From: Ceratodon purpureus | Lineage: Eukaryota; Streptophyta; Bryopsida; Pseudoditrichales; Ditrichaceae | Assembly: GCA_014871385.1 (NCBI GenBank) | Contig: CM026422.1 | Location: 10,084,564-10,148,563, forward strand | Direction: 5' to 3' | Length of the DNA: 64,000 nt | Part shown: positions 26,397-64,000 of the stretch, piece after piece | Layout: every line of letters begins with the position of its first letter | Position numbering within the stretch: position 1 is the first letter of the stretch | Program-made: the position numbers and the translations under genes | Notes under the pieces: generated by a model | The model's input: only the letters and a program-made list of their open reading frames with translations | What the model was told of the DNA's origin: nothing | The model's database searches: none

Positions 26397-27540
26397 TCCC
26401 GGCTTGGTAAGCATCCCAATCCCCGCTCCAATCCCCCACCTGCAAACAGAGAATCACATACAACAAGTAGTGAGAAAAATAGGGAAGGAAATGAATTCTT
26501 CAAGTGAAGACACTTCAAGTGAGGAAGATGAGGACATGGAGATGGAGGGGGGTATGACCTGCGGAGAGGGTGGTGGTTTCTTGGTGACATTGAAAGGGAG
26601 AGGGGACGGGGTGACAACAGTTCGTGGAGGGCGCGGCCGTGGAGGAGGGAGGGGGAGCCGCGATGGGCGTGGGAGAGGAAGGAGTGATTGGGACAGTGGA
26701 GGAGAGAGCACGCTAGTGAGGGGGCGGGGTAGAGGGAGAGGGAGAGGGGGAATTCGGGGAGAGGTGGGTGGAGAGAACAGAGAGGAAGTGAGGGGGAGGG
26801 GGCGGGGTAGAGGGAGAGGGAGAGGGGGAATTCAGGGAGAGGTGGGCGGAGAGAATAGAGAGGAAATGATGAGAGGGCGGGGAGAGAGCTCCGGGATTCT
26901 GGGCAGTGGGGGTCTGATCGGGTCTGAGGGGGGGCTGCCGAGAGGCGAAGAGGGAGGGGTTTCGGGAGAGATAGATGTTGGAGAGTTGAGAGATGGTGGA
27001 GAGATGCAAGAGGTTGGGGAGTTGAGCGGGGGTGAGGAGTTGAGAGATGGGTTGGGGTTGAGAGACGCTGTGAGGTTGAGAGATGAGAGGGATGAGAGCA
27101 TAGCAGAGAGGGTTTCCAGTGAGGGAGAGGATGGAGTTCGGGGCGAGGGTGGGCTGAGCGGGGAAGCAAGGGGAGTGGTAGGCAGTGAGGGAGGTCGAGG
27201 GCGAGGGAGAGGAAGAGGGAGAAGGCGGGGGCGGGGGGCGACAGACCAAGGACAGGGAGATCAGGGTGGGAGCGCCGAGTCGGGCAGAGGAAGAGGGAGA
27301 CGTGGTGGAGGCCCGGGATCTTGGGGCGGGCGGGCAACAAGGGGGAGGTTGGGAGAGGACTGTTTGGATTTAGCTCAGGCTGTGTCAGCTGAAGTTCGGG
27401 GACGAGGGAGTGGTAGGGCCGGGAGGGGCAGGGGTGGGGCAAGGAGAGGTAGAGGGAAGGGGCCCCCAAGAAGCCAAAGAGAATTGTCCCCGGTTCTATT
27501 GAGGATCTGTTCTGTGAAGAGAGTTGGGCAACTGAGGTAG
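25705..27540 (+). CDS. Long Arg/Gly-rich open frame overlapping the previous one
   Basis: An 1.8 kb open frame of about 610 codons in another phase, dominated by RGRGRG, acidic SSEEDEDME and repeated LRDG/LSGGEE-type segments. Its length partly reflects the purine-only strand, which rarely makes stop codons. It could be an RGG-box protein or transposase N-terminal extension that has slipped frame relative to the catalytic part. The ATG-less start means the true start is unknown. Low confidence that it is translated. Confidence 0.25.
   Translation: MSEEKRGGRMDSPIGSTSFSGDTFGQIQSPPQMAGRSQEREDVRGHSMVGFQPIWEMETATKRRKQTSHHEMEGGGVAAGRGGRMDEPEGVGSKTKDMTAMERGGSSAAGGSVTGAGLQISAMERRARAPEEATHEQFGGGQGRWSLPHLWSAGMQPRPEVAARGQAVSEHGSEQWAGDLREKALRVGVGGAQGAGGHREGYYPHPNCVGSAVTMDSSPRVPTQGPAGAASPGLVSIPIPAPIPHLQTENHIQQVVRKIGKEMNSSSEDTSSEEDEDMEMEGGMTCGEGGGFLVTLKGRGDGVTTVRGGRGRGGGRGSRDGRGRGRSDWDSGGESTLVRGRGRGRGRGGIRGEVGGENREEVRGRGRGRGRGRGGIQGEVGGENREEMMRGRGESSGILGSGGLIGSEGGLPRGEEGGVSGEIDVGELRDGGEMQEVGELSGGEELRDGLGLRDAVRLRDERDESIAERVSSEGEDGVRGEGGLSGEARGVVGSEGGRGRGRGRGRRRGRGATDQGQGDQGGSAESGRGRGRRGGGPGSWGGRATRGRLGEDCLDLAQAVSAEVRGRGSGRAGRGRGGARRGRGKGPPRSQRELSPVLLRICSVKRVGQLR
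26718..26873 (+). repeat. Tandem duplication, about 78 bp unit, two copies
   Basis: Two consecutive copies starting near 26720 and 26798, each with GGGGGCGGGGTAGAGGGAGA and ending in GAGAGGAARTG. The unit is a multiple of three, so the Arg/Gly-rich frame is preserved. Confidence 0.8.
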
Positions 27541-29060
27541 AAAATTACAGTCACAAAACTGATGTATTTACAGGACCTGAGCCTGGTGTGAAAATAGAAT
27601 TTGAGAAGGTGCCTTCTCCAATTGGGCTTTTCCACAGATTTTTTCCTGTCTCTTCATTGAAAATCATTGCACATGAAACCAATCGATATGCCTCGGAGGT
27701 GATCAAGGATGATGGATGCACTAGAGGTGGCATAGATTGGATTCCCGTGACTTATAAGGATTTAGAGGGATATTTGTGCATCCGCATGTTTATGAGCCTC
27801 AAGAGATTACCGAATCTCCGGCTTTATTGGTCAAGGGACCAAGTTCTATATCATTGCCCAATCATTTCTTCTTTGATGTCAAGGAATAGGTTTGAGAGCA
27901 TTACCCGGTGTTTGCACTTGACCCCGGATTCTAGTAGGGAGGGGGACAAGGGGGATCCCAATTATGATAAAATCTGGAAGGTTCGATGGTTGGCCAACGA
28001 CGTGAGAGATGCATGTGCAAATCTCTGGAATCCCAATGTAGCCTTAACGGTGGATGAAACCATGATCCTGTACAAGGGGAAGTATTGTCCCATAAGACAA
28101 TACATGCCCAAAAAACCCACAAAGTTTGGTGTCAAAGTGTGGGTTTTGGCGGATTCGAAGGCTAAATATGTCCTCAATTTTGACATATATTGTGGGGCAA
28201 GCTCCAAGTTTGGTGAGAAGAAGAAGGAAAGTAGGAAGGGAGTTGGGAAGCAAGGTGGGAATGTAGTGAAGAATTTGATGGCGGATTTACACCATAGGGA
28301 GCACCTAGTTGTTGTTGACAACTTTTTCACTAGCATCCCCCTATTCTCTGATCTCTTGGATGTGGGTATCTTCGCCACGGGAACGGCAAGGGCAGATCGC
28401 AAGGGGCTTCCCCCTTGCTTGACCAACAAGACAGAGAATGGGAAGCATCACCAAGGATGGTTTGATTACCGGTTTCATTCTTCGGGGAAGCTATGTTGTT
28501 TGGTGTGGATGGATAAGAAGCCCGTTTTGCTCTTATCCACACATGCATTGCCATTGAGCCCCGTGGAGAAGCCATTGTATGTTTGGAGGTTGGTTGATGG
28601 AGCCAAGACAAAAATCCCCACCACCCCCATCCACTTAGAGTATACTAAGGAGATGAGGGGTGTTGACGTGGCGGACCAACTGAGAGGGGCTTACTCTTTG
28701 CTCTCCAAGAGCCATAAATAGTGGTATAGGGTCTTTGATTTTTTACTTGATACGGCCTTCATCAACTCTTGGATTATACACTCTGAGGTTTCATTTCAGT
28801 TTGGAGTGGAGCCACTAACTCATCTAGAGTTTCATTTGCAGCTTGCCCAGCAATTGGGGGCCTCTATGCCAGGCCCGAGGCTCTGCACTTCTACGGTATC
28901 GCCATTGGAGCCACGGGTGCATGGCACCTTGACATCTCCAAAGATAAGAGTTTGTATTGTGTGCGGGGTGCGCACCAACAAAAGCTGCCCAGGATGTGCA
29001 GGTCTTTTCATTTGTGAGGGAGAGTGCTACTTTTTTATACACAAGGCTTACCGATTGTGA
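27453..29060 (+). pseudogene. piggyBac-type (DDE_Tnp_1_7) transposase, one in-frame TAG
   Basis: Catalyses cut-and-paste movement of its element at TTAA. The frame is open from 27453 with a basic patch (KKPKRI), then the piggyBac core: GIDWIPVTYKDLEGYL, LYWSRDQ, the first catalytic Asp in LTVDETM, the second in VVVDNFFTS, and the third plus the neighbouring Asp in GVDVADQLRGAYS. A TAG at 28719-28721 follows KSHK, where the family normally has an aromatic residue before WYRVF. The frame then stays open and reads WYRVFDFLLDTAFINSWI. It ends with a Cys-rich zinc-binding tail (CIVCG, CPGC, ICEGEC, then His) before the stop at 29058-29060. So all catalytic residues and the tail are present and a single base change accounts for the break. 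The Met at 27588 is the first ATG of the frame, but homology begins earlier, so the true start is upstream. Confidence 0.88.
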
Positions 29061-32400: not shown

Positions 32401-33734
32401 TCATGTTTTGTCTTAAAAATTAAATTTCATTTCCACTCCCTATTTTTGATATTTTTCTTTATTGTGGAATTTTAGAAAAATTTCTACAATGGCAACAAGG
32501 CACACCAATCATTCTACCTGTCATAAATTGTTTTATTTTTTGCGGCTATGTGATTTTGAGATATTAATTTTGGAGTGTGGAGAGATCTCCCCATTCCAAA
32601 GCCAAAAGTGCTGAGACACATCAAATCATTATCATTTTGGGAGGCTCGGATACAATTCTCTTGTGCAAGGTTGTAAAATAATGTGATTGAAAATACCAAA
32701 TCTATTCAAAGATACGGAGAAAGTGTTCATTTAACATTTAGTCTAGTCATACATCAAATATACCACTTGAGAAATCCAATTAGGCATGTAGCTAGCTAAG
32801 TTGTTTTTCATTACATAACATAACTTTTTAGTTCATAAAAATAGTGGTTTATTATAATAGTTGATGCAAATTATTGATAAAATATGTATAAGTTATGTCA
32901 AGCTTTCGATTTCGATTTAAAGAGCATCTTCACAAGAATAATATACAAAATAATTACAAATTGCAGTTCATATGATAAGAAGTTCAACATCAATTTCATC
33001 TTCGATATCATGAATTTGATAACTATAGCTAAAAGAAGCAAATGTAATGTATCTACAACTTAGAGTCATCAACACAGTGCTAGATTATCTATCTTTACAA
33101 ACTTATAAACAAAATTGATTACAACATGTATCACAAAATGTATCACAACATACATTGATAGTGAGACCTGTATTCATATTTCAAAATTGTTCCAAAATCT
33201 TGGGACCATGAAACCCCGGAAGTGCAAAGCCGTAAGTTCTAGGCTTGATGCACTTCTTTTTCTACTTCTATATGTTCATACTATCTTGAACCCTATACTT
33301 TAGTTTCAACTTGCTCCAAGTTTTGTATTTATAGGCGAACATTGAGGTCCCACACGTCTTGTTGCAGGGTAATTGGTTAATTACGTGTTATCTAGATACG
33401 GTAGATGTAAGATGAGGATGTACGTTTGGGTAGGTTATAAATTGTCGAAATTGGGTTAACTCTGTAAAGGCTGTTTTAACAGAATAACATGGCACACCAT
33501 GTGCTACCTATAACAAGAATTTTCTTTTAGAAAAAGTAGAGATCCTGGTTACGATCAGGATGTGTGAGGCCGCGACTTCTCGGCCCTCTGAATCGAACTC
33601 TGCATCTCCCCACACTAGTTATCACACAAGTGGGTGTTTCTGGTGTCAACCAAAAACCCAGGAGTATACAGGTCATTTACAAAGGTTCCTCCTTTTTGTT
33701 CTATAGAGCTATTCCTAAATGGAAACTGTATTTT

Positions 33735-33782
33735 TTTACTTTTACTTTTACTTTTACTTTTACTTCTACTTTACTTTTTACT
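33735..33782. repeat. (TTTTAC)n microsatellite
   Basis: About seven imperfect six-base units in the upstream region of the TFIIB gene. Confidence 0.85.
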
Positions 33783-33858
33783 ACAGATATATTTATTTTT
33801 AAGTGGTGGGAAAAAAGTATAAACTGTGACTGGAGAAAGACAGGTCGTGTTTGCCGTG

Positions 33859-33868
33859 GTTATATAAT
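33859..33868 (+). promoter_or_regulatory. TATA-like sequence upstream of TFIIB
   Basis: GTTATATAAT about 70 bases before the start codon, in otherwise mixed sequence. Position is plausible for a short 5-prime UTR but there is no transcript evidence. Confidence 0.3.
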
Positions 33869-33929
33869 TAAATTCAGAGCCGCTGATTTGTTTTGTGGTG
33901 TTTTCGGAAATTGGAAGTGGGAAGTGAAG

Positions 33930-36193
33930 ATGAATAAGATAATATGCCCCGAGTGCCGGAAGGCAAACGAGGTGGAGGTAGACCATGCCGCCGGGGATAT
34001 GGTGTGTGAGGAGTGCGGGCTGGTGCTGGAACAGCATTCGGTAGATGAGAGCTCGGAGTGGCGGACATTTTCGGATTCGACATCCAGCGACCCGGCTGAT
34101 CGTGTGGGTGGGCCTTCGAATCCACTTCTCACAGATCTAGACGGCAGGCTGTCGACGATCATATCCAAGGCACATGATGACTTCATGTCCTCCCTTGTGC
34201 GGTGGCAGAATAGGGGCTCGAATCCTGATCGATCGCTTATCATTGCGTTGAAGTCGATTGGGACCATGGCGGACAGGTGGGACGTTTCACGTCGACGCTC
34301 GCTTCTCCCGTCGATGTTATATCAAAGTGGCCAGAGCTCTATTTTGAGAGATGCAGCAACATAACAAAAATTACTGTATTAATGCAGCCTACCGAAGAGT
34401 GGAAATTAATTACCAGTACTTTAATTGTCCTTGAGAGCATATGCTGATCAAAATATTTTTGGCAGGGTATAATGATCAGGGATACATTTGTTGAAGGAAT
34501 TTGGGTTTTAGCGGTCGGTCTCTGCAGTGGATCGTTAGTAATTAGGCTTTGAAGCACTAATAATTTGAACACACAAAGTTGATATCAAATTGATGTTATC
34601 TTGATTTGTGCTCTCTCTAGCTATTCTACCCGTATGAGTTCAGCTCGAATAAGTTATCTATCGTTGCTTTTGCTTATGTGAGTAAATGCGGATTCCATCA
34701 AGTTAGCGTGAATATTTTTACTGATTGGGAAGCTGTGTGATGTAAGGCGGGATTCAGGCTCGGACTGGTGTCAACAATCAAGGATCGGGCTAATGAGATA
34801 TATAAGAAGGTGGAAGACCTGAAATCTATCCGTGGCCGAAGCCATGATGCGGTACTGGCTGCCTGCTTATACATTGCTTGCCGGCAGGAAGACAAACCTC
34901 GAACATTCAAAGGTTTTGCCTCCTTACCGCCTTCTGTCTCTGATTATGGAGTCACTTGTTTAGGATGAATTGTTTAGTATTTATCCTCTGTTCTGCACAA
35001 TTTTGAAAGAATCTGGTGCTCTTTAGAAGATATTATGCGCTCTAGGGCTTACTCAGTCATCCAAGATTTTGTTTGTGCCTAGTTATTATCAATTTTGGCG
35101 CAATAAAACCTATCCTTATTTTGAGATGGTGTTGTGGAAAAAACATATCTAGATATACCTGGAATGATTTCCGGCTACAGAGTTGACGCCTACACAACCT
35201 ACATACTCTTGAATGTTTTGGTTTTGCAGAAATATCCTCGGTTGCAAATGGAACATCGAAGACAGAGATTGGAAGAGCATCGACGTTTATTGTGAAGATA
35301 TTGAAAGAGGATATGGGCATTTCCATGGAGATGGGAACAATCCATGCTGGTGACTTTTTGGTAGGTCTACTCTTGCTTTCTTTCTGCTTGTTTGCATCAA
35401 TTAGAGCTGAAGTAGTCGGTGAACCAGTTAACACTGGTTCTCACATCATCATCATGATGAATTGTTCTCTGTTTGGCAATATGAGGCAGACATGTTTGTG
35501 TGACCTCTTTCGTCTTTGGACGTGGAACGAGTGAGAGTTTTTGTCTAATACTTAACGTTCTTATTATTGCAGAGGAGATTTTGCTCGCATCTTAACATGG
35601 AAAACAACGAGGTCAGAGCAGCCACAGAAATAGTGAAGAAGTCGGAGATGGCGCTGGACATCCGGTAAGTGTCATTCTCTCGTTCTACATTTTCAATATT
35701 TAAAGAAGTTGGTTAACCTGGTCAATTTTCCTTTACCTGAACAAACGAGATGGTAATGTTTCTAGTAGTACCGTATTGATAGTGTATCTTGTTTGACGTA
35801 CTGTTTTGTGCATATGCAGGAAGAGCCCAATAGCAGTTGCGGCAGCTGCTATATATATGATTTCACAACTCAATGAAAAAGAAAAGAGAGCTCTGAAAGG
35901 TACTAATTTAAACTTTCTAGACTTGTTGAGTTGTTCTTGTGTTTTTAGCAGTTTACATCGTGACTTAAGAATTGTTGAATATAGCCGTTATCTTAAACCA
36001 ACCGCTTGCTATGACGTCAGATATATCAAAAGTTGCCGGGGTGGCTGAAGTCACGATCCGAAATTCGTACAAAGATCTTTATCCTCATGCTGCCAAGCTC
36101 ATACCGGAGTGGTTTCTCAAAGATGTCGATTTGAAAAATTTGCCGGCAAACATAACAGGAATCAAGAAAGGAAGGCAGTCAGACCGATCATGA
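33930..36193 (+). CDS. TFIIB: Transcription initiation factor IIB
   Basis: Bridges TATA-bound TBP and RNA polymerase II in the preinitiation complex. Six exons: 33930-34276, 34758-34912, 35230-35360, 35573-35664, 35820-35899 and 36021-36193. All borders are GT-AG and all phases agree, giving 325 residues, close to other plant TFIIBs. The N-terminal zinc ribbon has C6, C9, C26 and C29 (CPEC and CEEC). Next come the B-reader/linker region with SSEWRTFSD and [10 protein letters not shown], then two cyclin folds. The first fold includes [23 protein letters not shown] and [19 protein letters not shown]; the second includes [21 protein letters not shown] and [17 protein letters not shown]. The C terminus is basic. 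Nothing is missing. Upstream in-frame sequence is open but unconserved, so I use the Met directly before the zinc ribbon. Confidence 0.95.
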
Positions 36194-45361: not shown

Positions 45362-47431
45362 TCACACCAAGCTTGTTACTTCAAGTGGGGACGCGATGCA
45401 ACGCCACGGTCCAAAAAGCGCCCTGTATGCTCCCATAAAAAATAAAAATAAAAATAAAAATACAAATACAAATACAAATAAAATGTGGGAACACGAATGC
45501 AATTCCTGAGCGATCCTTTCACGTAAGCCCTTGGGGCGTGCACCATCGTGAACTCCTGCAGCATTATTGCTGGATAGTGCTGGCGCCTTGAACACCGCCT
45601 CACCTCGTGCCTTCAACACCGCCTCAACTCGTGCCTTGAACACCGCCTCACGTCCTTCCTTGAACACCGTCTCACCTCGTGCCTTGATTTGATTCTCTTC
45701 AAACACGGCCGCGCTCTCTATACCGTCCATCCATTTCTTCAACTGCGGACCATGCAGCTCCAGCTTATAGAGCTTCTGGATCTCTTCGTTAATCCTCGCT
45801 TCTGTGATGTTGCTGTCGCCGGCGTCGGTGTTCTGTGTCACGATTGAATTCTGCTCTAAGGAGTCATCAAAGAGCGCAGCTGCTTCTACCAAAACTTTGT
45901 TCTCGTCCTTCATAGCTTCCTCCTTTCTCTCTAATATCTTCAGTATGCTCTCCTTCTTTTCCATGGTGCTGGTCGTGTCGTCCAGCACCTTCTGGATGTT
46001 TTCGTCCCTGATTGTGCGATGAGGCTCCATCTTGGTGTACACACGAATATGTCTGCTATTAGGGCACCCACAGACTCTACACTTCCCTGAAGAATAAGAA
46101 AGTTCTTTGCAGAACACGGCGTCATCTCTGGAGCAGGTAAGTTTTCGAATCAGTTTCAATTCAGGGTTCACTAAGCCGGATTCAACAAATTTGAAGCCGG
46201 CGTCGCTTACATCTAGATTAGAATCCTTCTCCACGATGTTTCCTTCCAAATTTTCGAACATACCCAATGTCGTCTCCGTGGGACTGCATTTATCATGGCA
46301 GACACTCCCTACGCACGTTTTCTCTGTGCAAACCATCTGCGGATGGTCGAGAGCCACATTTTCCTGGTACTGTTCCATTGTAAACAACTTATTTACATAG
46401 CTGCTTATATTGCCTCGTCCCTTCTGTAGTTCTTCTCTGGTCTTCTTCGTCTCCTGGAGGTTTTTCTGAATGTTGGCCGCTATATCGCCCAATGGTTTCT
46501 GAATTGATTCAAGCAAGCTTCTAACGCGGTTGAGAGATAAGGTGTTCTTGAGGTGGTGTGGCTCCAGTGTCGAAATATGAAGTATCAGCCTCACTGCCTC
46601 GTTTGCTGATTTGTTCCAGCTGCTTTCACAATCCTTAAATTCTAGTTCTCCTAAATCCCCACTCTCCTTCAAAATGACTTGATATCTGAAAGCCTCGCTG
46701 TCAAAGAAGTACATACTACTTTCGCTCCTGAGATCGATATTGACCGTGATGTCCTTCAGCATGTTCTCAAGGAGAGGGAGAGTGGACCCAATCGTAAACT
46801 GCGTGTTCTTCGAGTTTGTGAAGCAGAAGAGTATGTTGCGTGAAGCATCTTCGTGAAGTCTCTCACGCAGATGGGCGATGGATATCTTGAGGGAATTCGT
46901 GAGTGTCACTTCATCCGGCCTGAGAAGTATGCACACAGCATGCAGCACCTCATATCGGGCTAATAATGCATCCAGTATATGTTTAATGTTGTCTGCATCC
47001 GCATCAACGCCCTTTATGTCCAGAATTCCAGGGGTGTGTATGAACCGAACTTCCCCAAACTTCCCAAGGGGGAATGTGTAAGCCTCACATCTCTTGGGGC
47101 AGGATGCACCATCCTCAAGTTCAGCAGAACAGCCGTCATAGTTGCTGGGTTCTCCGAGGACAATATTTTTCGATTTAAGACGATTCAAGTATATGTTATT
47201 GTAATGGATTTGGAATTCGCTGTGTATGGGACTTTGGAGCCCCCCCTTAACCGCTTCATCGAGAGTAAGATAGCTGAGATAGTTACCAAGCGCGTTGATG
47301 AATGTTGACTGGCCAACTCCTGATACCCCGAGCAGGAGGATGTTTAGAGGGCCATTATGTGCGGGAGCTTGGGATTCTTGGACTGTCCCTGTGATCGAAG
47401 TAGGAATTTGGGATTCCTGGACTGTCTCCAT
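45362..47431 (-). CDS. AIG1-like GTPase-fold protein with C-terminal membrane anchor
   Basis: A single 689-codon exon. Residues 30-45 form the P-loop NILLLGVSGVGQSTFIN. Position 41, normally the phosphate-binding Lys, is Gln (codon CAG). Next come the G3-like FIHTPGILD and the AIG1-like LFCFTNSKNTQF, so the protein belongs to the AIG1/septin-like GTPase fold, a group used at membranes and in defence in plants and animals. The middle has a Cys-rich segment (VCTEKTCVGSVCHDKC, then CRVCGCPNSRH) that may bind zinc, then long coiled-coil stretches (KKESILKILERKEEAMKDE). Four 8-residue repeats of the type ARGEAVFK follow, then a hydrophobic run (VFVFVFLFLFLFF) likely to anchor the protein. A short N-terminal duplication (TVQESQ twice) precedes the G domain. 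Bacterial-style operon context does not apply. Because the key Lys is missing, nucleotide hydrolysis is doubtful. Confidence 0.75.
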   Translation of the reverse strand: METVQESQIPTSITGTVQESQAPAHNGPLNILLLGVSGVGQSTFINALGNYLSYLTLDEAVKGGLQSPIHSEFQIHYNNIYLNRLKSKNIVLGEPSNYDGCSAELEDGASCPKRCEAYTFPLGKFGEVRFIHTPGILDIKGVDADADNIKHILDALLARYEVLHAVCILLRPDEVTLTNSLKISIAHLRERLHEDASRNILFCFTNSKNTQFTIGSTLPLLENMLKDITVNIDLRSESSMYFFDSEAFRYQVILKESGDLGELEFKDCESSWNKSANEAVRLILHISTLEPHHLKNTLSLNRVRSLLESIQKPLGDIAANIQKNLQETKKTREELQKGRGNISSYVNKLFTMEQYQENVALDHPQMVCTEKTCVGSVCHDKCSPTETTLGMFENLEGNIVEKDSNLDVSDAGFKFVESGLVNPELKLIRKLTCSRDDAVFCKELSYSSGKCRVCGCPNSRHIRVYTKMEPHRTIRDENIQKVLDDTTSTMEKKESILKILERKEEAMKDENKVLVEAAALFDDSLEQNSIVTQNTDAGDSNITEARINEEIQKLYKLELHGPQLKKWMDGIESAAVFEENQIKARGETVFKEGREAVFKARVEAVLKARGEAVFKAPALSSNNAAGVHDGARPKGLRERIAQELHSCSHILFVFVFVFLFLFLFFMGAYRALFGPWRCIASPLEVTSLV
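45436..45483 (-). repeat. Six-base microsatellite encoding the membrane anchor
   Basis: On the plus strand AAAAAT units pass into AAATAC units. Read on the coding strand they give alternating Phe, Leu, Tyr and Val codons that form the C-terminal hydrophobic segment of the GTPase. Confidence 0.85.
45585..45680 (-). repeat. 24 bp coding tandem repeat, four copies
   Basis: Four consecutive 24-base units of the type GCCTTGAACACCGCCTCACC (plus strand) encode four 8-residue repeats in the GTPase, three of them of type ARGEAVFK and one EGREAVFK. Confidence 0.9.
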
Positions 47432-47842
47432 GTAGTGGAAGCCCCTTCGAAAGGGGGGCTAGGCTCCGGCCGGTCTTTGCTAGCACCTAAACTGCCTCTG
47501 TTCAGCACTTACAATTTTAGAACCTCAGAATCTAACGTCTCCCGAAACATGACTGAGGTTTAGATCATCAAGAACTAAGGCACCTCCCTAACAGACCCGC
47601 AATCGGCATCAGAGAATGCTCGCAATGATGAACCACGCGACCGCATAATTACTGTCTGCTTACTATGTACGACATTGGACCGGGCATACATTGTTTTTTT
47701 TTTTTTTTTTTTTGGGAGCAAATGAAAGATTTCATTGCAAAGAATTTTAAAATAGAACCTTTATTAGACAGACTTCTGAACTAAGATTAAGAAATCATAA
47801 CCAGTTAGGAATTATTCCACCTGGAGGGATTTAGTTCCACCC

Positions 47843-50074: not shown

Positions 50075-50834
50075 GGGGGAGAGCACGATAAAGTGGACCA
50101 CAAAGTGCAATATGTGATCACTAAGTGCAATATGTGATCACTAAGAAGTGAATATGAAGTGTGCTGTTTTTTAAAGCTCAAAGCTGATTTTGAGCATTTT
50201 GGTGAAGTTTTTGAGCATTTTAGTCACTTTCTAAGGTGTCATAAGGTATCTTACACGCATCTTCATAAAAAGAACATCCTCAATTGAAACTAAATTTGAC
50301 CACTAGTTCTAAATCATGAAAATGAACTTTTCCGAAGTCTTGATTTCTTCATTTGGTGCCCTCTATTGTCTTTAGAGGATGTTTTTTCCAATTTAAATAA
50401 CGACGTTCGGTGAAGAAAAACTCACAAAAAGTACCGCCAAAGTGACCCTCTTAAAAAACATCCTAGATATACTTCTCATCCGTCCAAACTTCCGAACGAA
50501 GTAGGTGGTGTTCATTTCCACGACCACAATTCACAAACGGAGGGCACCATCCGCTTGAAAGTGTTTTCTGACAAAGTTTGCACTCTTTTCTAGCCACTTC
50601 TTCAAATGACTACATTCACTTTGTCGCACTTTGAGGTACTCGTAGGGCATCGTAAACACCTTACCTTCTTATACAAATTTCCAGGACTCAAGATGACCGA
50701 GTCTATTTTCTATATCCTATCTTGCTTTCAACATATCAAAAACTTATATGGCACTTTTCTTAGTGTTTACAACAATGGCTGAAATTGGCAATGAGCTAAG
50801 CACTTTTGTGGTCCACTTTATTGTGCTTCCCCCC
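50075..50834. mobile_element. 760 bp inverted-repeat element, full copy
   Basis: The left end (50075-50108) GGGGGAGAGCACGATAAAGT... and the right end (50800-50834) are near-perfect inverted copies over about 34 bases, with AATT on both outer sides. Near the left end a 20-base unit with GCAATATGTGATCACTAAG is duplicated. No coding capacity; a partial second copy lies at 54255-54700. Confidence 0.75.
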
Positions 50835-51868
50835 AATTTCTTTTCCTTCCCTAGAAATTTTTATGAATAAAAATTTCAATCTATCTAGTGTTTTATTATG
50901 AGTCTACATACTACGGTGAAATCATGCACATCCTGTCTTTTTCAAATTCCAAGTCAAAAATCCAAATTTTGAAGGACTTTACAAATAACGAGCTAAGAAC
51001 TCACTCAAAAATTGATTAAGTTTGGAATTTTGATTTGCGTTAGAATGCTAGTGAAGTATATTTTAATAGATCACAAAAAGTATATGAACCAAAAAACAAA
51101 ATAAACATTTATATTTTTTTTATACACTGTCTACAACTTAATACTTCCACCCCTGGTTAAAATCATTGCTTTAATATGACATGGCATAGTTGAAATGAGG
51201 TGTTTCAGTTGCTCTAAAGGAACTTCATTCCATAGTTTTTTACAGGGTTGTTATAACAGACGGACATGGGCAAAATTTTCGGACACGGACGGACGGACGG
51301 ACGAACAGACGGACCGGTTGGTCCATGGTGAAAATCGGACATATTCTATGAATATTCCTAATTTTTCTCAAAAATGCTCAAATATGCTCGAATATGCTCG
51401 AATATTCTTTTATGGACCGGACATGACCCCTAACAGACGGACGAGTGGACCGGACGGTCTTTCGGACAAGGAGGTCCTATGAACAACCATGGTTTTTTAT
51501 TGCATTTTATGACTTCTTGCTCATTTTTAGGTATCCTATGCTTACGGAGTTTTAAGGATAAAGAACTAATGCACATTTTGTAGAAATATATATGGAAATA
51601 CTTTGAGCGAGGTTCCTTTTATGGACGACAATTGTCATGAGCTCCCATTCATAGAAGATGGAACTCCTATTTTTGAAAGTAAATTGTAAGAGAATTAAAG
51701 AAGTCTAGCTTATGGCATGAAGAAGTTGAATTGGCCTTTGCTGATTGGGATAATTTTTGGGACCGCATCTTGCACTTGATAGAGAAACCCTATTTTCTTT
51801 TTGTAATTAATCTTTTTCATCCTACAAGGAAGGCCCCATACATGAACGTGCTAAAATTCAGTTGTTAA
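50835..51868. other. Spacer with a GGAC-type microsatellite
   Basis: No gene seen. A GGACGGAC array at 51284-51320 sits inside a segment with repeated ATGCTCGAATAT-type words (about 51374-51400). Confidence 0.45.
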
Positions 51869-53861: not shown

Positions 53862-54254
53862 TTAAGCTTCAATTTTTTATTCACCTTCCAATCACCTTGA
53901 AGTTTATTGTCCGCTTTGTACATCTACTAGGCTTGACGACAGTGGTTCTGTACTTGAGGGAGATCACTGTTTAGCACAGAAGGGGATTTTGTAGTTCTCC
54001 GAGATGTCAATGTGGACTCGTGGAGGGCCGCCGGAATCCTAGTCTGTTGATGTACCGGAATACCGTCCATGTTGTCCAACGGGAACAACAACATGAGCTC
54101 GAGAGTACTGTTAGGGCCGGCTCAGGCTATGGCCAAACTCCGAGAGGAGATGCATCCCAATCAATGGAATTATAGAAATGCAAAAAGTTCCTCTTTTCAG
54201 CCTTCACACTTGAAGCCAAAGTCCAAAGAATGTCGCCTCAAAAAGAGCCTATGT

Positions 54255-54700
54255 GGGGGGAAGCACAATAAAGTGTACCACAAAAGTGCTCCGCTCATTG
54301 TCAATTTCATCCCCTATCGCAAAGACATAAAAAAGTGGCATCTTGTTTGTTGGTATGTTGAGAAGAAGTTTGGGTATAGAAAATAGACTTGATTATCTAA
54401 AGTGTAGGAGAATATGGTACAAATTCGCGTCTTCTACAAGTCGTACGAGAACCTGAAAGTCCGACAAAGTGAATGCAGTCATTTGAAAAAGTGATAAGAG
54501 CAAGTGTCAAATGTTGTCGGAAAACACTTTTGATTCCATGGTGCCCTCCGTTAATGAATTTCGGTTGTAGAAATGACAATGACCACTTCAAATGAAAGTT
54601 TCGGCGGACGAGAAGTATTTCAACGACATTTTTAAAACACTGTTTTCCGCAAAACTTTTTGTGAGGTTTTTTTCACGGAACATTGTTTTTCAAATTGGAA
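54255..54700. mobile_element. Partial second copy of the 760 bp inverted-repeat element
   Basis: Begins GGGGGGAAGCACAATAAAGT like the right end of the 50.1-50.8 kb copy and continues as a reverse-oriented, roughly 70 percent similar version of its interior (matching GCTCATTGYCAATTTC, GAGAAGTAT and ACTTTTTGTGAG words). The other end is missing. Confidence 0.65.
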
Positions 54701-55805
54701 ACACTAGTAGAAAGAGGCCTCAACTACACCAAGGTTCTACACCAAAAATGAACTTTGGTGTTCATCTATTTTCGACCCTGCAATTTCATTGGTGCAGACA
54801 AATTTTTGGTGTCAAAGGAATTGCCAATCCAAAAGTCCGTGTCAGATTTCTAATATGCAGAGTAGTCCATTAATATCGTCGAATTACAACACTGCCATGT
54901 CTTGCGCTCTCTGCTGTCGCCTCTACTTCATTAGCCGCGAAACGAGGAAGGTGATTTTATCAAAAGAAGTAATTAGTAACCCCCACCCAAACTAGTCCCC
55001 TGGCAACCTCGTCTGCTCTTTCGTTGGTTCCCAAGCCCAAGCGAGGACTTCGCATCGCGCACAATCCATGTGCGCACCTAAATATACACAAGCCGTTGGT
55101 TCTCCCCACCCTCACCCTAGGCGCCTCCCACTCTCCCCCTCGCCGCAGCTGCCCCTCCCTCTCTCCCTCTCTTCTCCGCGACGCCACTCTCCCGCCCGCT
55201 CAGAGTGTATCAGCTTCCCCATCCCCACGCCCTGGCCCTCGCTCTCTTGCACATACTAGCACAAAATTCTCTTGATCATTGGCAGATCACTCTCCGACTC
55301 TCTCCCTCTCTGCTCCCCTAGGTGCTTTTGATAGGACTCCGGGGTTGGGAAGAGTAGTCTGCTTCTGCGGCTGAAGCTCAAGCAATGACAAAACCCAAGT
55401 TATGAAGGACAGTGTCGGAGTCTGAACTGTGATAGTTTTGTTTTTGAGTTTGTTTTCATGATTGGGAAGTGGCTGAGGGTTTGTTTGATGTGGTGTTTGG
55501 CTTTTGTTTGGGTTTGTTTGATCTGGTGATTGGGTTTTGTCAAGCTTCATTGCTTCATTGGTGGATTTGGAGGAGAGTGAATGGGAGGTGACAAAGAAAG
55601 AAGGGATTGCGTTTCCGATGCAACATGTGTGCCTGTTCCTAGAGGCGAGTGTGAAGATGAGCATCAATGTGCAACGCTGCTTTAATGTGCACAAGATTAC
55701 AGAGACGCCCAGTTTGATAGCTGACACGATCCAATTGAAATCCAATCTTTTGAAAAACAACATCAAACGAACAAAATCAATCTCTATCTATTCGTATCAA
55801 AGTTT
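54701..55805. other. GC-rich spacer, possible promoter-like region
   Basis: From about 54975 to 55330 the plus strand is pyrimidine- and C-rich, like a promoter or UTR. An open frame at 55537-55863 (+) has no recognisable domain, and its end runs into the fragment described next. Confidence 0.35.
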
Positions 55806-56350
55806 GAAGGTACTATACCCCTGCCCAGAATGCTCCTTTGTTCAACCAGCGGTCGAGGTTTAGGGTTCCTTAAATTCTGGGGGCAGAAATCAGTAAGATT
55901 GTCGTGAACTAGGTGAGGAATTCCACCACCTCAGCCAACGCGCTGAGTTCCACCACCTTAGCCTGCACCTTTGCCTCCGGGACCATGGTGTCGGCACCAC
56001 CCACCATCTCCTTCAAACCCCCTCCCCCCACATCTGCCCTCTCCTCATGGGGGGCTTTCGGCACCGAATGCCCCTCAGCCTGCACCTCTGCCCCCGGGAC
56101 CATGGTGTCGGCACCACCCACCATCTCCTTCAAACCCCCTCCCCCCACATCTGCCCCCTTTTCATGGAGGGCTTTCGGCACGGAATGCGCCCCAGTGTGC
56201 ACCTCTGCCCCGTGGCCATGGTGTCGCACTGAGTTGATCTGTGAACTCCTACAACACAGACAACAAACAAATTATAAGAATCCAAAAAAATATTATATAA
56301 AAATAAGAAAGCAAGAGTTGCAATCCAAACAAATAATTTCGTCATGACTT
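55806..56350 (-). pseudogene. Rearranged fragment of the ParB/methyltransferase-like gene
   Basis: Bases 55806-55943 are about 80 percent identical to 61487-61623, an exon border plus exon of the gene at 58945-64000. In this copy the exon has a stop (TAG in TTCCTCACCTAG). Bases 56219-56290 match the region around the exon at 63665-63724 (shared TCTGTGAACTCCTACAACACA). The translated minus strand has AHSVPK-x-x-H repeats resembling AHSEPTSPH at the right edge of the window. Distant parts of the gene are thus joined here with the middle missing, so this is a deleted duplicate. Confidence 0.7.
55962..56230 (-). repeat. 117 bp in-frame tandem repeat, 2.3 copies
   Basis: Units start at about 55962, 56079 and 56196. 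Each encodes 39 residues on the minus strand, including ADVGGGGLKEMVGGADTMVP, so the array grew without breaking that frame. Confidence 0.85.
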
Positions 56351-56562: not shown

Positions 56563-56972
56563 GGGAAAGTTCGTATGTGAGCGGAGAGCGTAGAGCGGAG
56601 AGCGGAGAGCACAGAATGGAGAGCACAGAAATGACAAGTAGCCAAATTTTCAAAAGCAAAGTAAACCCTATAACCATGGAAAATTACTAAATTAAGGCTT
56701 GATTTTGACACTTTTATTAGGAAAAGAGTATATTACCGTGGAAATCAGGGTTATCTCTGGTAAGAATTTATTACGTTTGTTCTCTAAGATACAAATTAGG
56801 GCTGATGTCATGATGACGTCATGCATATATTTTGTAAGATTTGTCATGGGTTTAGGCAAGATACAATGATCAGGCGTTGAGTTTTAGATCAAACAAATAA
56901 TTCTTTCATAGGATTATGTAAATGCGCAAGGAAAAAAACAACTTTCACAGAACGTAAAGGAGGCAAGGTTTG

Positions 56973-58944: not shown

Positions 58945-61900
58945 TCAAACTGAGAACATGCTACAATCGCTACTTCCACTCTCAGAACCCGATGACTCAG
59001 AATCTCTTTCTACAGCCTCTTCATTGACAAATAGAAGGGCCCTGGGATCAAAACTAGTGGGCCGACTAGGAACATATCTAAGTGCACCACATTGAAGGGC
59101 TTGTGCTAAGCCCTCTGCATAGTCCAGAAGTATAAAAGGTTGAATCGGGCTGGAATGAAGACGCCACGATGGAGTGGACCCGGCTCTATGCCCACTTCGC
59201 GGTGTTGTCACAACTACTCTGCAATAGAAAGCCAGAAGTGGTTAGATCGAATAGGTAAATTTGCGTACAGAAACAATACTAGATGAATTGCACGAAACAT
59301 ACAAATTCTAGAGTAAGACTTACAATACTTAGTGGGTCTTTGTTTCTTTGCTGGTGCTTCCTCTGCTGCTGCCGGTCTAGGATGTTTAGGGGGGCCCATC
59401 GGAGATTTTGCTGCCATATACGGTTTGAGAATGGCGTTGAATATGGCTTCGTCATCCTCAAAAGCTATAATATGACGACCAATAGCCTGGCAAGCCTTGA
59501 CAGAGGCCCCTGCAACTCATAGCATGGTGAAGAAGTGAGAAACCGAGGAAGGAATGAGAGGAATAATTATGTAGAGACATGTAAGAACCGTTACCTGTTC
59601 CTGCCTTCCAGTCGAGGACTATGTCGCCGGGCTTCGAGAGCTCTCCAATTATGCTCTCCATCATCTCAATGGCTTTCTCCCTTGGCCCTCTCCATGGAAC
59701 ATCCCCATTCATTTGCTGAGAATCAACGTCGATAAAGTTGAAAATCGCATCACTCTCGGTAATGTTGAGGTCGCCATGTATGACATCAAATTTCTTCGTT
59801 TGAAAGGAGAACTTAGATGGCGGCTCGCCACCACGAACGAAGACGCGGATCTAGAACCGATTAGTCTGCAATCAACCAAATTATGTCAGTATGAATAAAC
59901 GGAAGGGATAGTACTAAGTAAAGAGAAGGAAAGGAAAGGATGAAATTACCAGGTTGCCGGGGTTCGTAGGAGAAGTCAGGCCGAGCACATTGAAGCCCCA
60001 CCAGTCTTTGTAAAGGACAAACTTAGTGGCGCTAGCTTCTTCGAGAATCTCCGTAGCCAACGCTTGATCATTGTTGTAGATGATGCACAGAGCGCCATCA
60101 ATTTGCAAGTAAAGACTTGCGAAATAGAAAATGTCATACACATTTAATCCTTTTCACGGGAGTTCCAAGGAGGAATCACTATAGGGGGATCGGAAACGAG
60201 AGGGACAGGAAGATTCTCAGGGATGTCTACGATGATCAAGTCGACTCCCAGATGATTCTCATCCTGGCACCGCTCAGGAACTTGGTTCTGGCGGCCACGT
60301 CCAAACTGCAGAAAGAAGAAAATAGAGTTAGACTATATGAAATTAATTGAAGTGTATGTAATATCATATTACGTAAGAAGAGAATCATACCTTGCGCACA
60401 AACTCTAGAGTTTCACCCAATCTGGATGGCCACCCTTGTCTTTTAGCTCCATGTTACGAACCAGTAACGAGGTCACAGATGACTTGATGATGGAAACACC
60501 AGTGGAATGGGGAGTTCCTGCGGAGGAGGTGCTTGCCGAGAGAAGTCTGGCCTTCCTTTGCTCCAGAAGACCTCTGGTAATAGCGGATGCACTGACCGAT
60601 GAAGGCGCAGTCGTAGAAGTAGGGGACGGATTGGAAACGACAATAACAGGAGAGGGCACGGCAGCCCCCTTCTCCGGTGCGGAGGACTCCGCACCAGTCT
60701 CCTGAGAGCCCTGGGACTTAGCACCCAATTTTCGCAGTCTCCGCGCTCTTCCTTTCTACGGTGGAGGTGCAGATGATTGATCCTTCAGGCCTTCGGCCTC
60801 ATCCGAACCGTCTCCAGAATCCTCGATGGCTGATGATCCCCCGTCAAGCTCAGATTTGAGCTCCGCTTCGGACTCAATAACGAAACCTCGAATGCAATCT
60901 AGGTACCAACAACCAGTACCTAGGTGGGGCGATTTGTACCTCTTCAACTGCAGAGGAGTATAGATACACTGATCAGAGCCTTTCTCAATCCACGCTGAAA
61001 AGTACCGGGGGAACTTCTCGAGTGTAATTGCACCTTTCGGAAGCAGCTCTCTCTTAAAGTACCTAATGAAGTTCACTTGCCATTGATCAGAATCATGTGA
61101 TTGACATCGTATAAAAGCGAAAAGAAAATAAGATAGGAAGACGTGGTTCATAAGTGTCATACCGGTATGTCACACGCTTGACAACATTTGCAGCTCCCGG
61201 AAAAGTGGAAAAATCAGACTTCTTATGAAAAGCCTTCTCTGCGCGGGTACCAAGAAATGAGGGGAAGGCCTTTTCCCGAAGGAGAATACGCCAACTCTCC
61301 ACATATGCGTCCGGCCGCATAACTCCCGGGAAGGACTTCCACTTGATGACAAGGTTCTCCGTCTTGCAGATGTCATCAAACTCCCGGGTAACAGCATCCT
61401 CTATCTGCGACAGAAAGGTAAAGTCGTTGAGGTAAATATTGACATGGGACAAAGAAGAAGTGGTTTTAGTGTTTATTACAAAGTTTGAAGGAACTATACC
61501 CCAGCCCAGAATGTTGCCTTGTTCAACCAAGGGTCGAAGTCGGCCTCCTTAAAGTCCTGGGGCAAAAATCTGTAAGATTGTCGTGCACTTGGTGAAGAGT
61601 TCCACCACCTCAGCCAACGCGCTTTAAACTTTGCATCAACAGCTGCATGAACAATCTTCTGAAGCTTCTCCACTGTCATCTCCGGCTTGGAGAATTCACT
61701 GTAATGCCGATTGATCTGGGAAGTGAACATTACATGAACGGAAAGATTAGATTTTAAACTAGTAATTGGAAACTAAAGTAGAAATGTCAAGAAACTCACC
61801 TCTGCAAGGAAGTCATCACCGTTTTTGGGATTGGCAATGGCCAGGTACTTGGTGAAGTCCTTCTTCTTAATGGTGTCGACCATGCTGGTTGAAGCGGCAG

Positions 61901-62062
61901 ACATGGCATCCCAAACACCTGACGCAGTTTGCTCTGGAATGGGTGTTTTCTCCTTGTAGATCCTGGCAGCTTCGTCAGAAGCAGCATTTATTCCTCTCTG
62001 GGAAATAAAATTATCAACTTGTGAGTGTCGAGAGCAAGACAATTCATGTCATTTAGACGCGT

Positions 62063-62093
<31 letters not shown>

Positions 62094-64000
62094 AAGTGCT
62101 TACACGATAAAGAAATGCGATGAAGACTTTTGTTGGCAAAGTAAACCATCCAGGAATCGATGGTTTGTGATTCAAAGATATTTGATACTCGTCTGCTGTG
62201 AGGAGATCCTTGAACTCCTCCAATTTCATCACACCGAAAGAGCGAATACGAAAGAGTTTTGCCGGAAGATTACTCTTCACGTGATCATTCTCTGTAGACC
62301 TGTTCGAAAAGATGGTAGTTAATTAAAGGCGAGAAGTGCAAGTTCAAGCAGCTTGCAAGAAGTTGGGACAATAAATAGGGATAAAGTTCTTACCAGTTAA
62401 TGTCGTGCATGGCATGAAGAAGGTTTCCCATATGACCGCGTGGGTCAAGAACAATGCAATGCACGGAGATGTGCCACGCTGGATCTTCGCTGTGATGATT
62501 GTTGATATGTCTGTACCATGCGGCAAGGCGATGGTTACCTTCCCAGACATAGAACATCTTCCCAGAGAACTCCTTCCAGTCCGGGTCGGCCAAGAGCTCA
62601 TCTTCAAAAGCATCATTGACTTCTTGCCAACAAGGGCTCCAGTCAGCCTTGATCTCCTCAGTGACATCGGCTGTCTTCTCTTTGTGGTTGTACATGGAAA
62701 TGTACATGACACGGTCTCCATCTCTATATCCATTGACAAACTCTCGCTCCAAATGTTGAACTCCCATCTCTCCTACTGGTCGCACTCTTGCCATTGAGAG
62801 CATCCTGCAAAGAGGAACTAGGATACGGGACTTCGTCTTTGGGAGTATTCGGAGGTCGTTGATGACGCCAATGGAGTCTTGCTTGTGCTGTATCCGATGT
62901 CCCAATTCACTGTCCACTGCATTCGTCAATTCACTAGGACAAGAGGGCGCTGGCAACTGATCCTGTGTTTGAGTTACCTGTCAAAGGTCATACGTATTTA
63001 GACTTGATTCGAAGGCAAGGATCGTGAGCAAATCAAATAATATAAAGAATAATAAAAGAATTGCTTCTTAGACTGATACATCTCTTTTGAGAACCAAATC
63101 AAGTAGTAATTAATAGAGCACAGGCCACTATGTGCGTGGTGCACGACTATAATAATCCCTAGCTTGTCTGCAGTTCCAGTGACGGCGCCTCTTCCAAAAT
63201 TGCCTCGTCTGCTGGACAGGGTATGGCAATATTGCTGGGAGGGCGAAGACAACATGGGCTGGCCTCTTCACTCTAATAGGGGAGGAAGGAGAAGGTGGAG
63301 ACATAGGCGGAGTACCAAGTCGTGGAGAAGTGGGCATATAGGCCGGGGATGTAGGCTCGTAGACAGGGGACGTAGGAATGTACTGAGCAGAGTGGACCTC
63401 GAGAGGTCCACTACCTAAACCTACAGGGTTGCCTAAATCACACCTACATAAATGGGGCTGATCAAATGAATCCGAGAGGTCGGAAACATTGATCACTGAG
63501 ATCGGGGAACTGATGGACAAGGGTGCATCTGAGAATACCTAGAGAAGAGGAACAAAGTCAATGTCAGTTTACCATCTAAGTTTTTAGAACATAATTAGAA
63601 AGAATAATGGATGTTCAATATACTACGCAATGTTAAAAAGAAAAGGCAAAGATAATTAGAATACCTCAGTTTCTGCTGGAGTTGGGCCATCGAAGTCACT
63701 TGCAGTGAATTGGTCTGTGAACTCCTACAACACAAAGCGTATGCAAATCATAAGAAACCAGCCAAAGACATCAAGCAACAAGAAGATAAAAGTTGAAATT
63801 AAAATAATCCATTCCCATAAGAGTATCAACTATTCCCTTAAGAGCTCTAAATCGCACAAGGGAGCTCTAATTTGCACTCGCATCTGCAGCCACCAAGGCC
63901 GCGGCCATGGCTGCCGCAACCTCCACTGCTTCCTTCCACAATGTCTCCCCCACCTTCCCCCCCACCTTGTGGGGAGATGTCGGCTCCGAATGCGCCACTT
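58945..64000 (-). pseudogene. ParB-like / N4-N6 amino-methyltransferase-like fusion gene (broken, runs off right edge)
   Basis: Minus-strand exons: 63724-63665, from 63538 (end unclear), 62977-62394, 62299-62104, 61997-61800, 61715-61500, 61404-61163, 61062-60417, from 60305 to 59950 (with a frame break), 59850-59595, 59509-59329 and 59218-58945. The resolved borders are GT-AG with matching phases. An Ala-rich exon at 63870-64000 is partial. Domains in order: heptad-like YIPTSPV, YEPTSPA, YMPTSPR; a ParB/sulfiredoxin-like domain with VYVWEGNHRLAAW-type sequence (GNHR at 62528-62539) followed by the strand ISVHCIVLD; a helical middle; a Ser/Thr/Pro-rich linker; then a methyltransferase-like region with DLIIVDIPENLP (DPPY site), TNPGNLIRVFVRGG, ELSKPGDIVLDWKAGTGG (motif I) and AIGRHIIAFEDDEAIF. 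The tail is acidic and Ser-rich. TAG at 60758-60756 and a frame slip near 60140 break this copy, although the sequence before the TAG also resembles an acceptor. The likely role is nucleic-acid binding or modification; activity is doubtful. Confidence 0.6.
62065..62090 (+). repeat. 26-base G homopolymer in an intron
   Basis: Uninterrupted G run between exons 62299-62104 and 61997-61800 of the minus-strand gene. On the transcript it reads as poly-C just after the 5-prime splice site. Confidence 0.9.

Follow-up and report, generated by a model that had tools for sequence, protein, structure and literature searches.

A ParB-like and amino-methyltransferase gene carried by a probable MULE-like DNA transposon of the moss Ceratodon purpureus

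The 64,000-nucleotide stretch of the Ceratodon purpureus genome that was analysed here (the window; C2:10084564-10148563 of the genome searched) carries a spliced minus-strand gene, very probably the decayed accessory gene of one copy of a large DNA transposon that was active recently and resembles the Mutator-like elements (MULEs). The protein encoded by the accessory gene comprises an N-terminal repeat region, then a region bearing a ParB/Srx-type motif, a middle region and an amino-methyltransferase domain; the gene is divergent from a transposase gene and located between inverted termini that are flanked by 10-bp duplications. The ParB half, recognized by its motif alone, and the methyltransferase half are combined in a single gene inside a DNA transposon, on the strand opposite to that of the transposase.

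An initial annotation, made from the sequence of the window alone, had proposed about eleven phase-consistent minus-strand exons. Nine of these are confirmed by their borders, with AG before and GT after each exon between 62977 and 59324, and the eight introns between them measure 84-106 bp; the reading phase of the window copy, however, holds only into exon 6. Exon 1 (62394-62977; open over 194 amino acids) holds the ParB/Srx-like domain with the motif YVWEGNHR, and exon 2 (62104-62299) the C-terminal end of the ParB-like region. Exons 3 (61800-61997; fold not assigned), 4 (61500-61715) and 5 (61163-61404) form the middle region, exons 2 to 5 all being phase-consistent, and exon 6 (60391-61062) is a linker. 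Motif IV of the methyltransferase (DIPEN) is found in exon 7 (59950-60305), the methyltransferase core and the start of motif I (DWKAGTG) in exon 8 (59595-59865), and the end of the methyltransferase (GRHIIAFEDDE) in exon 9 (59324-59509); the sequences GNHR, DLIIVDIP, KPGDIVLDW-AGTG and GRHIIAFEDDE all stand where the initial annotation had placed them. The borders of the nine exons recur in two other copies of the gene, designated A (locus L029) and W2. Aligned with copy A, the window is identical at 2267 of 2895 bases (78.3%) in the nine exons and at 396 of 707 (56.0%) in the introns, as is expected for coding sequence. Copy A forms a single open frame of 965 codons over the nine exons, exon 6 included, with the splice sites of the window copy; W2 shares these splice sites and has one stop across the nine exons, in exon 1. 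On the strength of the exon and intron identities, the open frame of copy A and the common splice sites, the gene is real and conserved as a protein. The last exon of the initial annotation is likewise open and conserved when read from an acceptor at 59216 (for 90 codons in the window and for 88 in both A and W2); the acceptor at 59218 leads to an immediate stop. Identity with copy A amounts to 85.7% (233/272) in this segment (58945-59216) and to 69.9% (65/93) in the intron preceding it, and it is therefore probably a tenth coding exon, which encodes an acidic, serine-rich tail and has no Pfam match. At its other end, the gene probably continues 5' past the end of the window.

The genome contains a large family of such genes, as the initial annotation had surmised. 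A search with exon 1, in which the best 150 of 1900 candidates were scored (the window included), gave matches that are 88-100% identical in all 150 cases, 137 of them without a stop, and near-identical copies are present on all 13 large chromosomes, which indicates mobility; L029 and L030, two copies from separate chromosomes, share 99.3% identity along 8.3 kb. The genome yields 32 matches to the methyltransferase family PF01555, and in 20 of the 20 loci that were fetched a ParB half is found upstream in the same order and on the same strand, the methyltransferase half being present in these loci by selection. The clades into which the ParB-methyltransferase genes fall are 30-42% identical to one another. 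A third clade comprises L027 (C1:5952500-5962300) and L028 (C5:15300500-15310300), with methyltransferase frames of 588 and 587 amino acids, respectively; this clade, too, is multi-copy, a search with its ParB region giving matches for all 150 candidates scored, with identities descending in steps from 100% to 44%, so that several subclades are mixed in that list. Nei-Gojobori estimates for exon 1 of the ratio of nonsynonymous to synonymous substitutions (omega) range from 0.12 to 0.24 in five of the six clade 1 pairs (the sixth pair is too close), and from 0.018 to 0.13 (median 0.05) in the 39 of 136 clade 2 pairs with usable synonymous divergence, the remaining pairs being saturated or too close. 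The ParB-methyltransferase protein is under purifying selection.

That this gene belongs to a transposon is borne out by its surroundings. Upstream of it, a divergent gene is found on the opposite strand, the putative transposase; a genome search with its core, in which the best 150 of 2084 candidates were scored, gave matches 99% identical in all 150 cases, 146 of them without a stop. For at least 43 of the 150 listed transposase copies, one of the listed ParB exons is oriented divergently at a distance of 3-16 kb, while the same-strand and convergent controls number 0 and 1; the figure of 43 is a lower bound because both lists hold the best 150 matches only. DNA searches with the two element ends covered the best 40 each of 1387 and 1451 candidates, and the 40 matches listed for the right end of copy A are 97-100% identical. 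Of the eleven left-right end pairs that were read, ten enclose 14.6-18.7 kb and the remaining one 32.6 kb. The termini read GAGGGAAGCTTGTACG...CGTACGAACTTTCCCC (GAGGG...CCCC) and are accompanied by inverted subterminal repeats. The 10-bp target duplication is exact in six of the eleven paired elements; in a seventh, nine of ten bases are duplicated or, alternatively, an exact 10-mer is shifted by one base. The element is a large, recently active DNA transposon that is very abundant in this genome.

Its relationship to MULEs can be stated with less force. The target duplications of MULEs measure about 9-11 bp, a range within which the 10-bp duplication falls. When read by eye, the divergent gene displays the motifs DATYS, FMADNAQANW, CLFHW and NLAETVHN, followed by a SWIM-type finger, and a genome protein (L134) that matches the Pfam MULE family PF10551 over the cut-off in one search and just under it in another (SWIM, 1.5e-5) shows, again by eye, a similar D-D-C..H-N..E-SWIM order. 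From the motif order as read by eye, together with the 10-bp duplication, we regard the element as probably MULE-like. Close homology of the transposase to L134 was considered and rejected, as just a short SWIM piece could be aligned. Two observations speak against our interpretation of the element: the divergent gene has no Pfam match, PF10551 being absent at E values up to 10, and four of the eleven paired elements lack a target duplication of their own, one of them running off its contig. In three of these four, one flank equals, by eye, a flank of another copy, as would follow from ectopic recombination or misassembly. The divergent gene had no match in the Protein Data Bank either.

The C-terminal half of the accessory protein is a DNA amino-methyltransferase domain of the beta class, in agreement with the domain named in the initial annotation. 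Exons 8-9 match N6_N4_Mtase (PF01555) with an E value of 5.2e-9 and 36.8 bits, above the curated cut-off of 26.7, and a profile built from four sequences matches the bacterial enzymes DpnA (8e-9) and CcrM (2e-6). The similarity to both covers motif I; the match to CcrM spans profile positions 14-228 and holds motif IV followed by motif I. This order, which is visible in the succession of the exons too, is the beta-class arrangement. The moss protein differs from these bacterial enzymes in the ParB-like half upstream and in its motif IV, where D-x-P-[FYE] replaces DPPY.

The N-terminal half is probably ParB/Srx-like, as judged from a motif and from matches to DndB that stay below the cut-off. 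An alignment of 17 family members contains an invariant core, FYVW-GNH, whose adjoining Arg is present in at least 90% of the rows. The motif hydrophobic-x-[DE]GxHR occurs in 16 of the 17 moss members and in 70 of 70 YbdM-like ParB proteins; the latter count is not independent, since an initial, stricter pattern had fitted 3 of these 70 proteins and was then relaxed. Among the 373 open reading frames of at least 60 amino acids in the window, exon 1 alone contains the motif, and 40 of 20000 shuffles of the exon do so. DndB (PF14072) is the sole Pfam family that matches as many as four of the 17 members, the best match reaching 15.2 bits (E 0.011) with 29.1 bits being required; in three of the four members, whose match positions were read, the match covers the motif. 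The DGQHR domain of the DndB type has been linked to the ParB/Srx fold in the accessible text of PMC4619093.

Several negative results weigh against this assignment. ParBc (PF02195) matches none of the 17 family members, so that the initial annotation's ParB-like domain stands by its motif and the DndB matches and not by the profile expected for it, and no other ParB/Srx profile exceeds its cut-off in any of the 17. Searches of PHROGs and NCBIfam with the ParB half gave no relevant match. In a profile comparison with the 70 YbdM-like proteins, made with the insert of the moss sequences removed, 88 of 200 column shuffles reach the observed score and the motif alone is aligned. A single-sequence structure model of the ParB half has a predicted local distance difference test score (pLDDT) of 38. 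Profile searches against solved structures recovered just a ribosomal protein (E 0.05-0.08), phmmer one weak chance match, and a plasmid search one chance match with an E value of 9. An origin of the ParB half in prokaryotes or phages was also considered and set aside; no relative was confirmed in viral contigs, genome contigs or phages, the contig scans having begun from short peptide patterns that reach close relatives only.

The window holds a dead copy of this gene. Its reading phase is kept through exons 1-5 and into the first part of exon 6; from exon 6 on the gene is broken, with in-frame TAGs at 60758-60756 and 60407-60405 (exon 6) and at 59853-59851 (exon 8), and with frame breaks in exons 6 and 7. 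The right terminus of this copy is found at about 56563, where a terminal repeat (56563-56690, minus strand, inner border approximate) ends in ...CATACGAACTTTCCC. Next to it, at 55798-56338 on the minus strand, there is an internally deleted second fragment of the family that consists of array sequence, exon A (near 56249) and the 3' part of exon 4 (55944-55798; 85% DNA identity). In the other direction, the window copy extends 2.9 kb beyond the end of the window. Its transposase remnant stops at C2:10151488, cut off by the right end of another, full-length copy, W2 (C2:10151489-10167163); W2 carries a single stop in exon 1 and two more in its transposase. The target duplication around the composite of the window copy and W2 is imperfect and was not used as evidence.

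The initial annotation had viewed the gene as a captured and intron-bearing bacterial ParB-methyltransferase gene. Its introns and its two-part composition stand; the terminal inverted repeats, the 10-bp duplications and the divergent transposase in a fixed arrangement make it a transposon accessory gene and not a captured host gene. It is very improbable, in our view, that the host captured a bacterial gene once and has since retained it as one of its own, with a small number of paralogues and pseudogenes. Introns and purifying selection are what one expects of such a gene, and for Marchantia the accessible part of PMC8885841 describes an amino-methyltransferase that belongs to the host and functions in sperm. 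The 150 best-scoring exon 1 matches with their 88-100% identity on all 13 large chromosomes speak against this explanation, as do the termini and the fixed arrangement with the transposase; copy number, termini and target duplications together rule out a single captured host gene. Equally remote is the assignment of the element to Lanisha, a proposed superfamily of cut-and-paste transposons whose describers reportedly work on Ceratodon purpureus. Lanisha has been described by Maumus, McDaniel and Carey (reference in PMC12730594), and, as far as the accessible text of PMC12730594 goes, it is EnSpm-like and placed in a clade with mostly CA..TG termini and duplications of 2-5 bp. The GAGGG...CCCC termini and 10-bp duplications of the moss element set it apart from that description, and its transposase carries, by eye, a SWIM-type finger.

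With regard to the function of the accessory gene, we propose that the ParB-like domain would recognize or clamp sites in the DNA of the element, that the methyltransferase domain would place N6-methyladenine (6mA) or N4-methylcytosine (4mC) at such sites, and that the element would benefit from the mark, which would most likely counteract silencing by the host or label the element's own copies. An anti-silencing role would be our first choice, by analogy with the VANDAL MULEs. Heavy CHG methylation of a dead copy would be expected to leave an excess of C-to-T changes, and the window copy has none (CG 35/286, CHG 25/305, CHH 111/1177); no footprint of the silencing to be opposed is thus seen, which tells against the proposal, and decay driven by methylation (CAG to TAG) is not supported by these counts. 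Nearly as likely as anti-silencing, and to be entertained only tentatively, is a role as a cofactor of transposition, in which the ParB-like part would clamp the ends or the subterminal repeats and methylation would set the timing of transposition or limit it, in the way known for Dam methylation and some bacterial elements. The pairing of the accessory gene with the transposase, and the strong conservation of the core across clades that are just 30-42% identical, would suit this role; the binding sites it proposes are purely hypothetical, and the present data do not separate it from anti-silencing. It is also possible, though we would not favour it, that the methyltransferases of the window's clade (clade 1) and of clade 3 have lost catalysis and are kept as domains that bind DNA or S-adenosylmethionine, while that of clade 2 is active. 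The consensus of motif IV in N6_N4_Mtase is [DNS]PP[YFW], from which DIPE in the window departs, to the detriment of our proposal. DIPE is found in four of four clade 1 sequences (the window, L029, L030 and L039, two of the four being near-identical) and DVPE in two of two clade 3 sequences (L027 and L028), both without the aromatic residue, whereas 18 of 18 clade 2 sequences (L009-L026) have D[QT]P[FY], which is close to the bacterial DPPY. Because of this departure and the missing aromatic residue, catalysis in the window's clade is uncertain. Against its loss stand a four-sequence alignment across the clades, in which the motif IV Asp, the second Pro of that motif and the region of motif I are all invariant, and the abundance of clade 1 copies with open frames.

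The transposase core is nearly uniform, whereas the accessory gene is diverse, with 88-100% identity among the nearest 150 exon 1 matches and 30-42% between clades; the two lists, each of the best 150 matches, are only partly paired. Moreover, a three-copy alignment shows that the window copy, A and W2 are mosaics. Scored in blocks of 300 columns, the identity of the window to A is 89-93% within the ParB exon, falls to 61-79% between about 62080 and 59100, and is 87% for the last block; for A and W2, it is 71-74% within the ParB exon and 94-97% over the methyltransferase exons. Since A is similar to the window in its ParB half and to W2 in its methyltransferase half, one might speculate, at rather long odds, that subfamilies of the element swap their ParB-like targeting halves and their methyltransferase halves, much as specificity modules are swapped in bacterial restriction-modification systems; each subfamily would then mark just its own DNA, while the transposase is nearly invariant. 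Should this be true, a land plant would harbour a mobile element that writes an amino-methyl mark, two of its clades having an unusual D-x-P-E motif IV.

The 5' part of the gene has features of its own. Exon A (63665-63724, minus strand; EFTDQFTASDFDG...) is located 5' of exon B and exon 1, and its phase, read from the sequence, fits both. Exon B (63131-63538, minus strand) encodes heptads resembling those of the C-terminal domain (CTD) of RNA polymerase II, with Y-x-P-T-S-P-x present three times. It occurs in three diverged copies (63131-63538, L029:3463-3870, and L039 at extended window coordinates 72684-73112), with three or more such heptads per copy as read by eye. The Pfam family RNA_pol_Rpb1_R is matched below the cut-off in the window (E 0.0052) and in copy A (E 0.00081), and the W2 version has no Pfam match. 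The stop of exon B is kept in an alignment of the three copies, and its phase equals that of exon 1; exon B is perhaps an alternative last exon, and splicing in the element may lead either into a CTD-like tail or into the ParB-methyltransferase. Long in-frame tandem arrays of 171-bp and 117-bp units occupy the first exons of the element (L029:1-3189; L033:1-2970; window 55956-56226), and array-like sequence flanks the terminus in some copies, as if elements insert into each other's arrays. With respect to chromosomal distribution, C6 (110.5 Mb), the likely sex chromosome, holds 53 of the 150 listed ParB exons as opposed to 17 of the 150 listed transposase matches, and older copies may survive longer there; the sex chromosomes of C. 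purpureus exceed 100 Mb according to the accessible text of PMC8000587.

The remainder of the window contains other mobile DNA and ordinary host genes. A piggyBac-type transposase (27453-28718, plus strand; DDE_Tnp_1_7, E 8.7e-68) is open over 422 amino acids, a Helitron_like_N domain (8951-9508, plus strand; E 3.6e-20) is perhaps part of a degraded Helitron, and an inverted repeat of about 450 bp with 74% identity (50385-50835 and 54254-54701) perhaps represents the ends of another transposon. The host genes comprise a Fringe-like/DUF604 gene (3266-4255), a cation efflux gene with a ZT dimer domain (18906-20586), a TFIIB zinc ribbon gene (33540-34361) and an AIG1-like match below the cut-off (45365-47458). 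A scan of the window for tRNA genes found none.

ParB-methyltransferase accessory proteins have been reported in transposons of green, red and brown algae, and in Sola1-1_Ec32 of Ectocarpus the corresponding gene is located opposite to the transposase, as in the moss element (accessible text of PMC12477816). Compared by description and not by sequence, the moss element differs from the algal systems in that it resides in a land plant, is MULE-like with 10-bp duplications and not a Sola1 element, has at least nine exons, reaches a very high copy number and carries DIPE or DVPE as motif IV in two of its clades. VANDAL MULEs code for a protein that controls the epigenetic silencing of the elements themselves, as stated in the accessible part of PMC12730594. 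The likeness is that of a plant Mutator-type element with an accessory gene that acts sequence-specifically on the epigenetic state of the element itself, a role that is proposed for the moss element. The VANDAL anti-silencing protein is not known to be a methyltransferase, and the mechanism envisioned here would be a new mark. Marchantia provides a bacterial-type amino-methyltransferase in a bryophyte as well, a 4mC enzyme of sperm; it is a host gene described in the accessible text of PMC8885841 as having no additional N- or C-terminal domains, whereas the moss gene is transposon-borne and has a large N-terminal half. No moss, MULE or land-plant ParB-methyltransferase transposon was found among the papers listed in searches of the open-access literature, which omits most subscription papers, several of these searches listing the best-ranked papers only. 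Given the published algal cases and this lack of a moss, MULE or land-plant case, we view the moss element as a land-plant, MULE-like variant of the algal ParB-methyltransferase class of transposon accessory genes.

If the intact copies of the moss element are active, the reach of this class, known from algae, would widen to include land plants and MULE-like elements, and a land plant would carry many mobile amino-methyltransferase genes. Every reading of 6mA and 4mC in C. purpureus would be affected, and this moss would offer a haploid, genetically workable organism in which a DNA mark belonging to a transposon itself can be tested.

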